Below are positions 12,943 through 59,385 of a stretch of DNA of 64,000 bases, in pieces (the first letter of the stretch is position 1; each line of letters begins with the position of its first letter). The notes below the pieces were generated by a model that had not been told where the DNA came from, searched no databases, and worked only from the letters and a program-made list of their open reading frames with translations. The stretch comes from an uncultured Akkermansia sp. (GTDB taxonomy: Bacteria > Verrucomicrobiota > Verrucomicrobiia > Verrucomicrobiales > Akkermansiaceae). Location of the stretch: positions 1 through 64,000 of the forward strand of contig CANQAC010000006.1 in assembly GCA_947589345.1 (NCBI GenBank). Direction: 5' to 3'. Position numbers and translations under genes: made by a program.

Positions 12943-13299
12943 GGGGGCGTCCCGGAATCGACTGAACATTCGAGGCGTCAGCTGCATGTGGAGGTTGATC
13001 GGCTGGCCTCCTTAAAAAGCCGCTCAAACATTAAGTGCCTATTCTGAGAACGAATACGCCATGGCTGCGTAACATACGCGCCGGATCCCGCGCTTGACGC
13101 CCGCTAGGGTGCGTGGATCTTCCATTCAGCGAGCAGATATGCGGCGGGGGGAACCGCCCCGCATCATCTCACCACAGGTTCACAGCCGCGGGAAGGCCGG
13201 CGCAGAGCTGACCCAAGGCCCATGCTTCATCTGCGCCTGAACATGGAGATGCTTGCGTCAAAAGTGTCCAGGACAGGGGTTCAACTCCCCTCGCCTCCA
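12943..13299 (+). ncRNA. ssrA: tmRNA
   Basis: 357 nt. The 5' end GGGGGCG pairs with CGCCTCC at 13292-13298, and the third pair is G-U, the alanine identity element. The 5' side continues with the usual GGAATCGACTG, and the 3' side has a T-arm with GGGGTTCAACTCCCC. The tag frame begins at resume codon GCC (13037) and reads AYSENEYAMAA, ending at TAA 13070-13072. The peptide therefore ends in YAMAA rather than the common YALAA. The RNA rescues stalled ribosomes together with SmpB and marks products for proteolysis. CCA is not encoded. A terminator follows directly. Confidence 0.95.
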
Positions 13300-25453: not shown

Positions 25454-25484
25454 GCCCCCGCACCTGCGGCAACGCGGTGTGGAT

Positions 25485-25559
25485 GGAGCGGTAGCTCAGT
25501 TTGGTTAGAGCGCAGCCCTGTCACGGCTGAGGTCGCGAGTTCAAGCCTCGTCCGCTTCG
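25485..25559 (+). tRNA. tRNA-Asp(GTC)
   Basis: The acceptor GGAGCGG pairs with CCGCTTC. The anticodon stem CAGCC/GGCTG encloses loop CTGTCAC, anticodon GTC. The T-arm is GCGAG/CTCGT with TTCAAGC. CCA is not encoded. Confidence 0.94.
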
Positions 25560-25565
25560 TCACTT

Positions 25566-25599
25566 AGGCGCGATCGCCCGTTTGGCGGTCGCGCCTTTT
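25566..25599 (+). terminator. Terminator of tRNA-Asp
   Basis: AGGCGCGATCGCC pairs with GGCGGTCGCGCCT around a 5-nt loop, followed by TTT. It also abuts the 3' end of the convergent gene. Confidence 0.82.
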
Positions 25600-25607
25600 G
25601 TTTGTAG

Positions 25608-26891
25608 CTATTCCATAAGGCGGTGGTAAACGGGAAAAGGTTCCGGCCATTTGTGGAGCCTGAGAATTCGCGGGACAATGTGTGAACCGGCGCGCTGAGC
25701 AGCCCGGTACATCATGCGGGTGAGAGTGCGCAATTCTCCCTCGTCCACGTGCGATCCCACAGAAATTTCGGCAGGACTTCGATTCTCATCCACGAGGGAT
25801 CGCAAGGCTCTCTCCTGAGAAGACACATGGATGGCGGGGGGCGTGGAACAAGGAGACGACCAAACCAGTTGAGCAAGCGAAACAATCTCACTATCGTGCA
25901 AGTCCCCAAAGGGAGCGAGACTCCCGGCCGCATAGACATGGTCTCTGCCCAGCAGGAAATCATCACGTGAAGCTCCATTTAACAAAAGTAAGCACTGCTC
26001 ATCAGCAGCATCCTGCATGGCAGCTGCCTGCATGCGCAGTGAGCCGACCCTGTCTCCTGCTTGCAACACCCGGACTGAGCGTTTGCTGCAGCTCCGGAGC
26101 GCAATAGCGAGAAGCAACTCAGCATGAGGAAAAGATGCCGGCACGGCAATTCCCGAATACCCACCCTGCTCCACGGCATTTCGAAGCGCGTACTGTATAG
26201 CGCGTAAAGTACGAGCAGCAGCGAACTTGGGTGACACGTGTTCCCACGCTGCCGACTCCTCTTTCCATAAAACAGCGGTTGCGGCAAACTCGGGTAAAAA
26301 CCGCAACAATTTGCCGCCGTGCGCACACAAGAGCGATCCCCCGCCCATCAGACAGCCATCGGCATACGCCACAGCCTGCAATATGCCCACTGCGGCACCT
26401 GATTCATCCGATTCGCGCCTCGCGTGTGCAGCCCATTCCGTACACAGATCCGCATGCCAGGTCTGGGATGGAAGGTGCAGCAATAAATCAACCGGCTTCG
26501 TGCAGTAAATTGGCGATTCCATGGTATCAATCCATACACGCATTCCGCACACCCGCGTTGTTCGATGAACCGGCAGTCTGCGCACTTCCCCTCTACCGAC
26601 AAGATAGGGGGACGGAAACTCGGTCGCTTCGCCCAGTTCGCCCGCATAACTGGCCAACAGCATTGGAACAGGCAGCTCATCTGCCAATGCCTGCAGCGCC
26701 GCCTTACCCTGCAACATGAATGAACTTCGCGAACGTAACGCACCCGGCCAGGCGCCATCCAATCCCTGAGCTGGTGCGAACAAGAACTCCGCGCCCCTAT
26801 CCATACACAGGCGCGCCCCCTGCACAAGACGGCGCAAATGCGCTGAAAAGTCTCCAATTTCCACTTCTGTCTGCACGATACCGATACGCAT
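25608..26891 (-). CDS. Degenerate NAD synthetase (NadE-like) pseudoenzyme
   Basis: 427 residues with the two-domain layout of glutamine-dependent NAD synthetase. The N-terminal nitrilase-like domain begins MRIGIVQTEVEIGDF. Its catalytic Glu is replaced (FAPAQGLDG where F-P-E is expected) and the Cys position of the GxxxCED-type motif is Trp120 (GMRVWID). In the synthetase domain the SGGxDS loop is replaced by ASFPHA (252-257). A later block, AAGSLAPFGDLHDSEIVSLA (321-340), still matches the NadE consensus well. The open frame is intact, so the protein is probably made and may have a structural or regulatory role. ATG 26891 is used; the longer frame starts in the -35 box. I know of no named family for it. 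Confidence 0.65.
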   Translation of the reverse strand: MRIGIVQTEVEIGDFSAHLRRLVQGARLCMDRGAEFLFAPAQGLDGAWPGALRSRSSFMLQGKAALQALADELPVPMLLASYAGELGEATEFPSPYLVGRGEVRRLPVHRTTRVCGMRVWIDTMESPIYCTKPVDLLLHLPSQTWHADLCTEWAAHARRESDESGAAVGILQAVAYADGCLMGGGSLLCAHGGKLLRFLPEFAATAVLWKEESAAWEHVSPKFAAARTLRAIQYALRNAVEQGGYSGIAVPASFPHAELLLAIALRSCSKRSVRVLQAGDRVGSLRMQAAAMQDAADEQCLLLLNGASRDDFLLGRDHVYAAGSLAPFGDLHDSEIVSLAQLVWSSPCSTPPAIHVSSQERALRSLVDENRSPAEISVGSHVDEGELRTLTRMMYRAAQRAGSHIVPRILRLHKWPEPFPVYHRLME

Positions 26892-26913: not shown

Positions 26914-26942
26914 AGTATAGCACGCACAGCACTCCATCGCAA
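26914..26942 (-). promoter_or_regulatory. Promoter of the NadE-like gene
   Basis: Minus strand TTGCGA (26942-26937), a 17-bp spacer and TATACT (26919-26914), leaving a leader of about 15 nt. Confidence 0.7.
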
Positions 26943-56491: not shown

Positions 56492-57259
56492 TCATTTCTT
56501 GTTATAGCGCGTGGGTTTGACCTTCTTTTTACCGGGAGCAAAAAACTCCGGATGTCTGGCTGCCCACGCTTCATAGAGTTCCGGCCGATTAGCGCGAGTG
56601 CGCTCGACCGCCTGCTCCGTCTTCCACTCTCGGATAGCCCGGTGGTTGCCGGACAGTAAGACGTCCGGCACTTTCAGGCCACGGAACTCAACGGGTCGTG
56701 TGTACGCCGGAGCCTCCAAAAGTCCGTCAGCAAACGATTCGTCCTCGCTGCTGCGTTCATCGCCCAAGGCGCCGGGAATGAGCCGCGATATGGCGTCAAT
56801 GAGCACCACGGCGGCAATGGCTCCGTTGGTCAGTATGTAGTCGCCGATGGATATTTCCATATCCACCAATTTATCGACGACGCGCTGATCGACTCCTTCG
56901 TAGTGACCGCAGAGGATGATGTAGTGAGCGTCGTTCCCCGGAATCAGGCTGGAAGCAGCAAGTTCCCGGACAACCTGCTGAGTCAACACGCGACCTTGCG
57001 GGGTCATCAGAATGACTCGCGAATTTTCCCGCCGCAATTCTTCCACAGCCGCAAAAATCGGCTCGCACTTCATCAGCATGCCCTGCCCTCCTCCGCACAA
57101 ATAATCGTCCGTGCGGTGGTGTTTGTCGCGCGTCCAATCACGGATGTTGTGGGAACGCACCGTGAGCAGCCCGTTGTCAGCCGCACGCCCGATGATGCTC
57201 TGTGAGAGCGGAGCGCTCACGATCTCCGGAAACAGGGAGAGGACATCAAACTCAAGCAT
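56492..57259 (-). CDS. trmD: tRNA (guanine-N1)-methyltransferase
   Basis: 255 residues. It methylates G37 of tRNAs and prevents frameshifting; the protein has a trefoil knot. Seen: MLEFDVLSLFPEIVSAPLSQ, DDYLCGGGQGMLMKCEPI, the S-adenosylmethionine-binding IILCGHYEGVDQRV and EISIGDYILTNGAIAAVVLIDA, and the later LLEAPAYTRPVEFRG. Lies 17 nt after prfB in the same direction, so the pair may be co-transcribed. Usually trmD sits with rpsP and rplS; neither is here. Confidence 0.97.
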   Translation of the reverse strand: MLEFDVLSLFPEIVSAPLSQSIIGRAADNGLLTVRSHNIRDWTRDKHHRTDDYLCGGGQGMLMKCEPIFAAVEELRRENSRVILMTPQGRVLTQQVVRELAASSLIPGNDAHYIILCGHYEGVDQRVVDKLVDMEISIGDYILTNGAIAAVVLIDAISRLIPGALGDERSSEDESFADGLLEAPAYTRPVEFRGLKVPDVLLSGNHRAIREWKTEQAVERTRANRPELYEAWAARHPEFFAPGKKKVKPTRYNKK

Positions 57260-57276
57260 GGTCGTGCGGGAAAAGA

Positions 57277-58393
57277 TTACGCGTTGGCATTGCGGCGCAA
57301 CATGGCTTCCACATACGCATCAAGATTGCCATCCATCACATCTTGGATATTGCCGCTTTCCACGCCGGTACGCAGGTCCTTCACCATCTGATACGGCTGG
57401 AAAACGTACGATCGGATCTGGTTGCCCCATGCAATATCTCCTTTTTCGGAGTACTGGCGATCGGCCTCGGCCCGTTTGCGATCTTCCTCAAGTTGAATGA
57501 GGCGGGCCTTGAGCATCCGCATGGCCTCTTCGCGGTTGCGCAGCTGGGAGCGCTGTGTCTGGCATGCCACGATAATGCCGGTCGGTATGTGGGTGAGGCG
57601 CACGGCCGTTTCAACCTTATTGACGTTCTGACCGCCCTTGCCACCGGATCGATAGGTATCCATCTTTACATCGGCCTCCTTCACCTCGATCTCCACATCA
57701 TCAGAAATATCCGGCGTTGCATCCAAGGAGCAAAACGACGTATGCCGCTTGCCCGCAGCATCGAACGGACTCATGCGCACCAGACGATGAATGCCACGCT
57801 CATTCTTCAGGTAACCGTAGGCGTATTCCCCGCTGATCTTCACGGTCACCGAGCGCAGTCCCGCCTCATCGCCGTCCGTACTCTCCATGATTTCCGTGGT
57901 AAAATGATGCCGCTCACAGTAGCGCAGATACATGCGCAGCAACATGCTCGCCCAATCGCAGGCCTCGGTGCCGCCGGCTCCGGAATGGATGGTTATGTAG
58001 CAGCCGGACGCATCGTGCGGACCGTTGAGCAAGGTCAACAGCTCAAAATCCTGCAGCTTCTTCTCCCACGCGTCGTACTCCGCTTTGGCCTCCTCGGCCA
58101 ACTCAGCCTCCTCGCGTCCCAGCTCAATGGCCGCTTCCACGTCGTTGAGTCCGTTCTCCAGCTCGCGATACTGCTCCAAACGGCGCTTGAGCGGATTCAC
58201 TTCGGCCATGAGAGACCGGGCGGCTTCGGGGTTGTCCCAGAAATCCGGCGCACTCATACGCTGTTCCAAAAGGCCGACCTGTTGCTCCATGTGAGCGAGG
58301 TCAAAGATAGCTCCCGAGCTCGGAAAGACGGCTGCGCATGGCTGCCGTGTCGAGCGTCGAGAGATCAGTCTGAGAAGTCGGGTTCTCCGTCAT
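57277..58393 (-). CDS. prfB: Peptide chain release factor 2, programmed +1 frameshift
   Basis: RF2 recognises UAA and UGA. The gene is in two frames. Zero frame runs from ATG 58393 ([20 protein letters not shown] and on) to CTT 58306-58304 and an in-frame TGA at 58303-58301. Reading shifts by +1 (skipping T 58303) to GAC 58302-58300 and continues as [16 protein letters not shown] to the end, 371 residues in total. The slippery context CTT-TGA-C preceded by GGGAGCTAT is the classic RF2 autoregulatory site. Downstream, the GGQ hydrolysis motif is in [14 protein letters not shown]. The ATG is 9 nt from a -10 box. Confidence 0.94.
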
Positions 58394-58402
58394 GGCGGGC
58401 GC

Positions 58403-58431
58403 AGTGTAGCAAGTTGTCAACGTCGTGTCAA
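58403..58431 (-). promoter_or_regulatory. Near-leaderless promoter of prfB
   Basis: Minus strand TTGACA (58431-58426), a 17-bp spacer and TACACT (58408-58403), 9 nt before ATG 58393. Confidence 0.78.
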
Positions 58432-58480
58432 GGCAAATCAACGGATGCAACTCACGGCGCAACGGTGGCGTGTCGTATCC

Positions 58481-58508
58481 TTGACAAGCATGTCCGATCA
58501 GGTAAAAT
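58481..58508 (+). promoter_or_regulatory. Leaderless-type promoter of nadC
   Basis: TTGACA (58481-58486), a 16-bp spacer and TAAAAT (58503-58508), 7 nt before ATG 58516. Confidence 0.78.
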
Positions 58509-58515
58509 GAGACCC

Positions 58516-59385
58516 ATGCAAACCTTGCATGTTACAGATAACCGGGATGAGTTGATACGCCTTGCCCTGCAGGAGGACTTTGGCAATGGCGATGTGACTT
58601 CACTGTACTTTGTGCCGGAGGCGCTGCAAGCTCAGGCGCTCATGAGGCCGCGCGTGCGGGGAGTGCTCTCCGGGGTGGAAGTGGCGGCACAAGTGTTTCG
58701 CACGCTGGATCCCACGCTCAAGGTTGAGGTGCAACTGGAGAACGGAGACGAAGTATCGCCGGAAGCGATTATCATGATGATACGCGGCTCAGCCCGTTCT
58801 ATTCTCGGGGCGGAGCGAACTGCGCTCAACTTCATTCAACGGCTCTCCGGCATCGCCACCATGACCCGAAAATACGTGCAGGCCATCTCCCACACCTCAT
58901 GCAAGTTGCTTGACACCCGTAAAACAACCCCCGGCTACCGCCTCCTTGAAAAGGCCGCCGTCGTTCACGGAGGAGGCGCCAATCACCGCCTCGGTCTCTA
59001 CGACCGCGCCATGGTCAAGGACAACCATTTGATGACGAACGGCAATACCGAACACTTGCAGGCCTGCATCCGCCGCCTCAAAGAGGAACGCCCGTCTGTC
59101 GAGGTGGAACTGGAAGCCGACAGTTTGGAGCAAGTGGAGGCTTTTCTCAAGCTGGAGGGCGTGGACTACATTCTGCTCGACAACATGAGTCCCGACCAGA
59201 TGCGCAAGGCGGTGGAGATGCGCGGTGTGCAGGCCAAACCTTTTTACGAAGCGAGCGGCGGGTTGACCTTGCAGACTGCGCCGGCCGCGGCGGAGAGCGG
59301 GGTGGACTTCATGAGCTTCGGGTGTCTCACGCACTCGGCTCCCTCGCTGGACATCGGTTTAGACTTCACCACGCTGGCCCGGTAA
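58516..59385 (+). CDS. nadC: Nicotinate-nucleotide pyrophosphorylase (quinolinate phosphoribosyltransferase)
   Basis: 289 residues. It converts quinolinate and PRPP to nicotinate mononucleotide in NAD synthesis. Seen: ALQEDFGNGDVTSLYF, RTALNFIQRLSGIATMTR, LLDTRKTTPGYRLLEKAAVV, GGGANHRLGLYDRAMVKDNH and VELEADSLEQVEAFLKL; the C-terminal EASGGL phosphate site is present. A longer frame on the same strand begins at 57202 but crosses the prfB gene and its promoter, so it is rejected. The dprA ATG follows the stop without a gap. Confidence 0.96.
   Translation: MQTLHVTDNRDELIRLALQEDFGNGDVTSLYFVPEALQAQALMRPRVRGVLSGVEVAAQVFRTLDPTLKVEVQLENGDEVSPEAIIMMIRGSARSILGAERTALNFIQRLSGIATMTRKYVQAISHTSCKLLDTRKTTPGYRLLEKAAVVHGGGANHRLGLYDRAMVKDNHLMTNGNTEHLQACIRRLKEERPSVEVELEADSLEQVEAFLKLEGVDYILLDNMSPDQMRKAVEMRGVQAKPFYEASGGLTLQTAPAAAESGVDFMSFGCLTHSAPSLDIGLDFTTLAR

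Follow-up and report, generated by a model that had tools for sequence, protein, structure and literature searches.

The gene at positions 25608-26891 (minus strand) of the DNA analysed here very probably encodes a pseudoenzyme under selection, which we call pseudo-NadE. The whole stretch, hereafter the window, comprises 64,000 nucleotides of contig CANQAC010000006.1 of an uncultured Akkermansia sp. (genome G000). By alignment and tree, the ancestor of pseudo-NadE is the short (dimeric-class) glutamine-dependent NAD synthetase found in Akkermansia's family. The short NadE was probably displaced by a long NadE.

The pseudo-NadE gene and its surroundings

The gene and the features flanking it in the window are as follows.

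25608..26891, minus strand: pseudo-NadE gene, 427 aa (ATG at 26891, stop codon at 25610-25608; no stop inside the frame)
26914..26942, minus strand: promoter-like site TTGCGA-17-TATACT with TG ahead of the -10, upstream of the ATG (consensus scan only)
25484..25561, plus strand: tRNA-Asp (gtc), a neighbour convergent to pseudo-NadE
25566..25596, plus strand: strong terminator-like hairpin between the end of pseudo-NadE and the tRNA (the plus-strand orientation fits tRNA-Asp)

The open frame is thus undamaged, in agreement with a preliminary description of this DNA. The same description had given the gene its own promoter; a sigma-70-like site is indeed present at 26942-26914, as a consensus-based identification, and four such sites occurred in a 2-kb stretch compared with 0.7 expected from shuffles. 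nadC was located elsewhere in the window as described, at about 58555-59385 (plus strand). Its frame (57202-59385, plus strand) extends without a stop for some 440 codons ahead of the probable start of nadC, and this long extension is possibly antisense to a gene on the opposite strand. The window also carries a tmRNA gene at 12943-13299 (plus strand) with the tag AYSENEYAMAA.

The adjacency of pseudo-NadE and tRNA-Asp seen in the window is common to G016 and G092. Among the Akkermansia loci compared, neither a neighbour common to the whole genus nor a universal operon partner of pseudo-NadE was found. The upstream gene is LptD-like in many species and CoA-ligase-like, ArgH-like, or NtrC-like in others, and an MlaE-like gene lies downstream in the A. 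muciniphila clade; these neighbour names are readings of the sequences.

Predicted fold of pseudo-NadE

A Pfam search of the window protein gave no match. NCBIfam gave an NAD+ synthase match with an E value of 1.4e-6, and the score for NF010588 (27 bits) was below its cut-off of 479. The AlphaFold model of the protein reached a pLDDT of 89.7 and a pTM of 0.90, values to be read with caution as to the fold because the alignments behind the structure models included intact NadEs. Short glutamine-dependent NadEs took the top rank in Foldseek (3n05, E 1e-22), and VIA-align matched the model to 3n05 with a Z of 29.7 and an rmsd of 2.9 over 414 of the 427 residues. The predicted model of the A. muciniphila group orthologue (pLDDT 88.1) gave a Z of 29.6 over 452 residues. 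Single-domain nitrilases aligned to model residues 1-212/213 with a Z of about 20-23. The parts of the protein were assigned as follows.

26256..26891, minus strand: nitrilase-like (dead glutaminase) domain, residues 1-212 (VIA-align to single-domain nitrilases)
25611..26255, minus strand: NAD-synthetase-like (dead) domain, residues 213-427 (the 3n05 match reaches residue 427)
26769..26771, minus strand: codon of Ala41, which aligns with the nitrilase catalytic Glu of intact NadEs
26124..26141, minus strand: ASFPHA, residues 251-256, in place of the SGGxDS PP-loop (alignment)
25872..25922, minus strand: SLAPFGDLHDSEIVSLA block, residues 324-340 (alignment to intact NadEs)

Pro327, which lies in the SLAPFGDLHDSEIVSLA block, was conserved in all dead copies compared, whereas the intact enzymes have Val. 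The two-domain order of NadE reported in the preliminary description is kept, and structure prediction returns the NadE fold at full length. Chance resemblance to NadE is ruled out by the fold, the alignments, and the orthologues, and the predicted two-domain NadE fold of the window protein is well supported.

Loss of both active sites

NAD synthetase is essential and nearly universal. Its glutamine-dependent form combines nitrilase-type Cys-Glu-Lys chemistry with adenylation at a PP-loop. To compare the active sites, the window protein was aligned to five intact NadEs of the same order. Ala41 occupies the position of the nitrilase Glu and ASFPHA replaces the SGGxDS loop, both as first read from the sequence. 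The catalytic Lys loop of the nitrilase is deleted. The nitrilase Cys is also lost, although Trp120, to which this loss had been assigned, is probably not at the Cys position, since alignment on VGITICEDIW places Met124 or a gap there. Hence no member of the Glu-Lys-Cys triad that a working NadE requires is left. In addition, TGNKSE and QKDQDSLP are absent from the window protein, which has NGASRDD and a deletion instead. Because the triad and the PP-loop motifs are lost, established NadE chemistry predicts that neither half-reaction would be able to run in the usual way.

The short NadE2Gln enzymes (NF010588; 3n05, 3ilv, 4f4h, and 5kha) thus share domain order, full-length predicted fold, and descent with pseudo-NadE, but they are about 550 aa long and have the Glu, Cys, Lys loop, SGGxDS, TGNKSE, and QKDQDSLP that the 427-aa window protein lacks.

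Distribution of pseudo-NadE in Akkermansia

Pseudo-NadE was found in 67 of 76 Akkermansia genomes, including the A. muciniphila group. We examined 64 copies, G013 included. All 63 copies besides G013 lack both the nitrilase Glu and SGGxDS; stray residues occur in the Lys or the Cys alignment column of single copies, namely K in G082 and G088 and C in G066. The sequences replacing the PP-loop differ from clade to clade. Fourteen derived residues mark the dead family and are kept in 85-100% of copies. The frame was open and near full-length in 63 of the 64 copies, which span dozens of species and include pairs of only 23-30% identity. A frameshifted orthologue, the sign of decay named in the preliminary description, was seen only in G036, whose fragmented assembly consists of about 140 contigs; almost all of the genus has intact orthologues. 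The G066 orthologue is extremely diverged, with a branch of about 4 changes per column.

The gene is missing from nine of the 76 genomes, four of them 80-88% complete and five 94-99% complete. G094, which appears to be the closest relative of the window genome (two flanking loci, 78-80% DNA identity), is among the genomes without pseudo-NadE, and no relic of the gene was found at the tRNA-Asp locus of gene-lacking species including G094.

An evolutionary intermediate in G013

In the G013 homologue, the nitrilase triad is gone while SGGVDS, TGNKSE, and QKDQDSLP are kept. On invariant columns defined with 16 intact enzymes, G013 keeps 14 of 50 in the nitrilase part, which resembles that of the dead copies, and 88 of 123 in the synthetase part. 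A maximum-likelihood tree, in which the very long branch G066 could not be placed with certainty, split G013 and the intact enzymes from all dead copies with 100/100 support. From these columns, motifs, and the tree position of the early-branching G013, the glutaminase most likely died first and the synthetase second.

Twelve of the 14 dead-family residues are already present in G013, indicating at the sequence level that the protein was changing before it ceased to be an enzyme. The G013 homologue also shares the locus family and the HRLND tail with pseudo-NadE; it differs in the retained synthetase site and in having no long NadE beside it, as none was found in G013. Most likely, the synthetase site was kept where the genome relies on its short copy.

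A working NadE in the window genome

A search for an active nadE elsewhere in the window genome found a catalytically intact-looking long-type NadE (G000:C23, L061), in which PELS, PKSVLP, EICEDLW, and SGGLDS are all present. This enzyme, of the type found in M. tuberculosis and human, has the same two domains as pseudo-NadE but belongs to another NadE class, is about 640 aa long, and carries all catalytic motifs. Judged by these motifs, L061 is the working NadE of G000, and an enzyme of its type probably replaced the short NadE. A long NadE query matched 73 of 76 Akkermansia genomes; G013 matched via its short NadE only and G095 via an end fragment.

Several side observations concern the NadE inventory. 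L061 is 96% identical to the long NadE of G092 (L154, G092:C78), and loci around the window show about 75% DNA identity; the sequences suggest that the long NadE was probably exchanged recently between the lineages of G000 and G092. A further stand-alone NAD synthetase (PF02540) of 261-272 aa occurs in G018, G023, G011, G007, and G005 (L037-L041). In G094 (97% complete), neither a short nor a long NadE was found, which is probably due to an assembly gap.

Selection on pseudo-NadE

We calculated omega by the Nei-Gojobori method with bootstrap bounds for 21 species pairs. The omega of pseudo-NadE was 0.09-0.42 in all 21 pairs, and every upper bound was below 1 (at most 0.68), so that each pair shows purifying selection. 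For G000 and G092, it was 0.235 (0.16-0.38) at near-saturated dS, the window lineage being measurable only against relatives at such distances. A dN/dS well below 1 in every pair agrees with the earlier proposal that the gene is probably under selection, and the window gene has neither the disrupted frame nor the neutral dN/dS of a pseudogene. The proposal needs some qualification, however, since the working NadE is usually under stronger constraint (long NadE omega in the same genomes was 0.04-0.17, below that of pseudo-NadE in nearly all pairs) and since the gene is lost in some species, including G094.

The pseudo-NadEs of G000 and G092 are only 48% identical, compared with 96% for their long NadEs. 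Faster decay of the window copy is nevertheless not supported, because other loci of the two genomes are only about 75% identical and the G000 path in the gene tree is no longer than those of its relatives.

Short NadEs in other genera of the family

Outside Akkermansia, the majority of the short NadEs read in this family were intact. Dead or dying short NadEs occur in G183, G194, and G277, and a long NadE is present in all three. A quick tree placed them outside the Akkermansia dead family, G277 among intact enzymes and G183 and G194 on long branches with unsure placement. Inactivation of NadE thus appears to recur in other genera. G162 has both an intact short NadE and a long one, indicating that a long NadE allows the short copy to be lost without making its loss inevitable. 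Among near-complete genomes, none was found in which a synthetase-dead short NadE lacks a long NadE beside it; G034 and G072, which have no long NadE, are only 76-79% complete.

Possible roles of pseudo-NadE

We propose that the glutaminase site died first in the Akkermansia ancestor, a state that G013 would retain, and that a long NadE would then have rendered the short synthetase redundant, so that its active site was lost as well and the folded protein alone retained. Without catalysis, what remains would be a folded protein, probably a dimer, serving to bind a ligand or a partner. The ligand would most plausibly be a dinucleotide, NAD(H) or NaAD, bound at the old allosteric or interface sites, and the ligand state would be passed on by protein-protein contact. 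Taken as a whole, the combination of pseudoenzyme, displacement, and binding role is the best explanation, with a probability that we place slightly above even. A role specifically as a sensor or scaffold is a tentative suggestion that we consider possible but doubtful. Dimeric NadE2 enzymes undergo feedback inhibition via an allosteric NAD+ site, which is relieved by PII (PMC7196632). In Akkermansia, where no PII was found, pseudo-NadE might be a stand-alone NAD(H)/NaAD sensor in which the old allosteric NAD+ site senses and the output is given by touching either the long NadE or a transcription activator; in this precise form the proposal is improbable.

The main rival is that pseudo-NadE is a slowly decaying relic without a role, its frame kept by slow deletion or by selection against misfolding. 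Such a relic would fit the constraint weaker than on the long NadE, the loss of the gene in several species that show no trace of it at the tRNA-Asp locus, the frameshift in G036, and the extreme divergence of G066. It fits poorly with near full-length frames that stay open in all but one copy at such low identities, with omega below 1 in all pairs (0.09 in the lowest), with shared derived residues retained at 85-100%, and with a confident prediction of the complete fold, so that we regard it as rather unlikely. Some remaining enzyme activity, whether through an altered mechanism or with a different substrate in remodelled pockets, could account for the retained fold, for some pocket-forming segments that are kept, and for the conserved derived residues. 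However, essentially no copy has kept Glu or Cys, the loop with the catalytic Lys is missing, and the variation of the PP-loop replacements among clades is unlike a new conserved active site, making this reading highly improbable.

A part in nitrogen signalling, as a PII adaptor or as the partner of an NtrC-like sigma-54 activator encoded upstream in early-branching species, is suggested by the binding of dimeric NadE2 to PII in other bacteria (PMC7196632) and by an NtrC-like gene 1-6 nt upstream of the gene in G013, G015, and G027 and nearby in four more genomes. Against it, PII (PF00543) had no match in any of 76 Akkermansia genomes while 13 of 14 control genomes matched, which disfavours the adaptor role; and the NtrC-like linkage is missing in most species, the window included, and at the outgroup nadE loci, where no tie of such a gene to active nadE was seen. 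We therefore consider this part very unlikely. The NtrC-like gene upstream may be an old gene context within Akkermansia, and the loss of PII might have been one reason for the replacement of the short NadE by the long one. Compared with these alternatives, a selected, non-catalytic binding protein remains the reading that we prefer.

Relation to known systems and implications

Dead relatives of metabolic enzymes kept for structural or regulatory roles are known, such as the pseudo-dihydroorotase in ATCase complexes and HisZ with HisG. Pseudo-NadE resembles them in this respect and differs in that its working enzyme is only a distant relative. A partial literature search turned up no description of a dead NadE in Akkermansia and none of a NadE pseudoenzyme. 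NadE forms have been gained, transferred, and lost (PMC3376133), and the text of that study contains no mention of "inactive", "non-functional", or "degenerat". Pseudo-NadE is thus a family of pseudoenzymes whose source the searched literature does not describe, accompanied by an evolutionary intermediate.

These results mean that the order in which the two NadE sites were lost can be read from living species, and that inactivation of the short NadE goes together with a second NadE of the other class. Annotations and metabolic models may wrongly list dead copies as NAD+ synthases. A non-catalytic role is testable, because the gene occurs in the A. muciniphila group, a gut commensal that can be cultured. 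If the sensor reading were true, pseudo-NadE would represent an enzyme turned regulator, with a living intermediate in G013 and parallel cases in sister genera.
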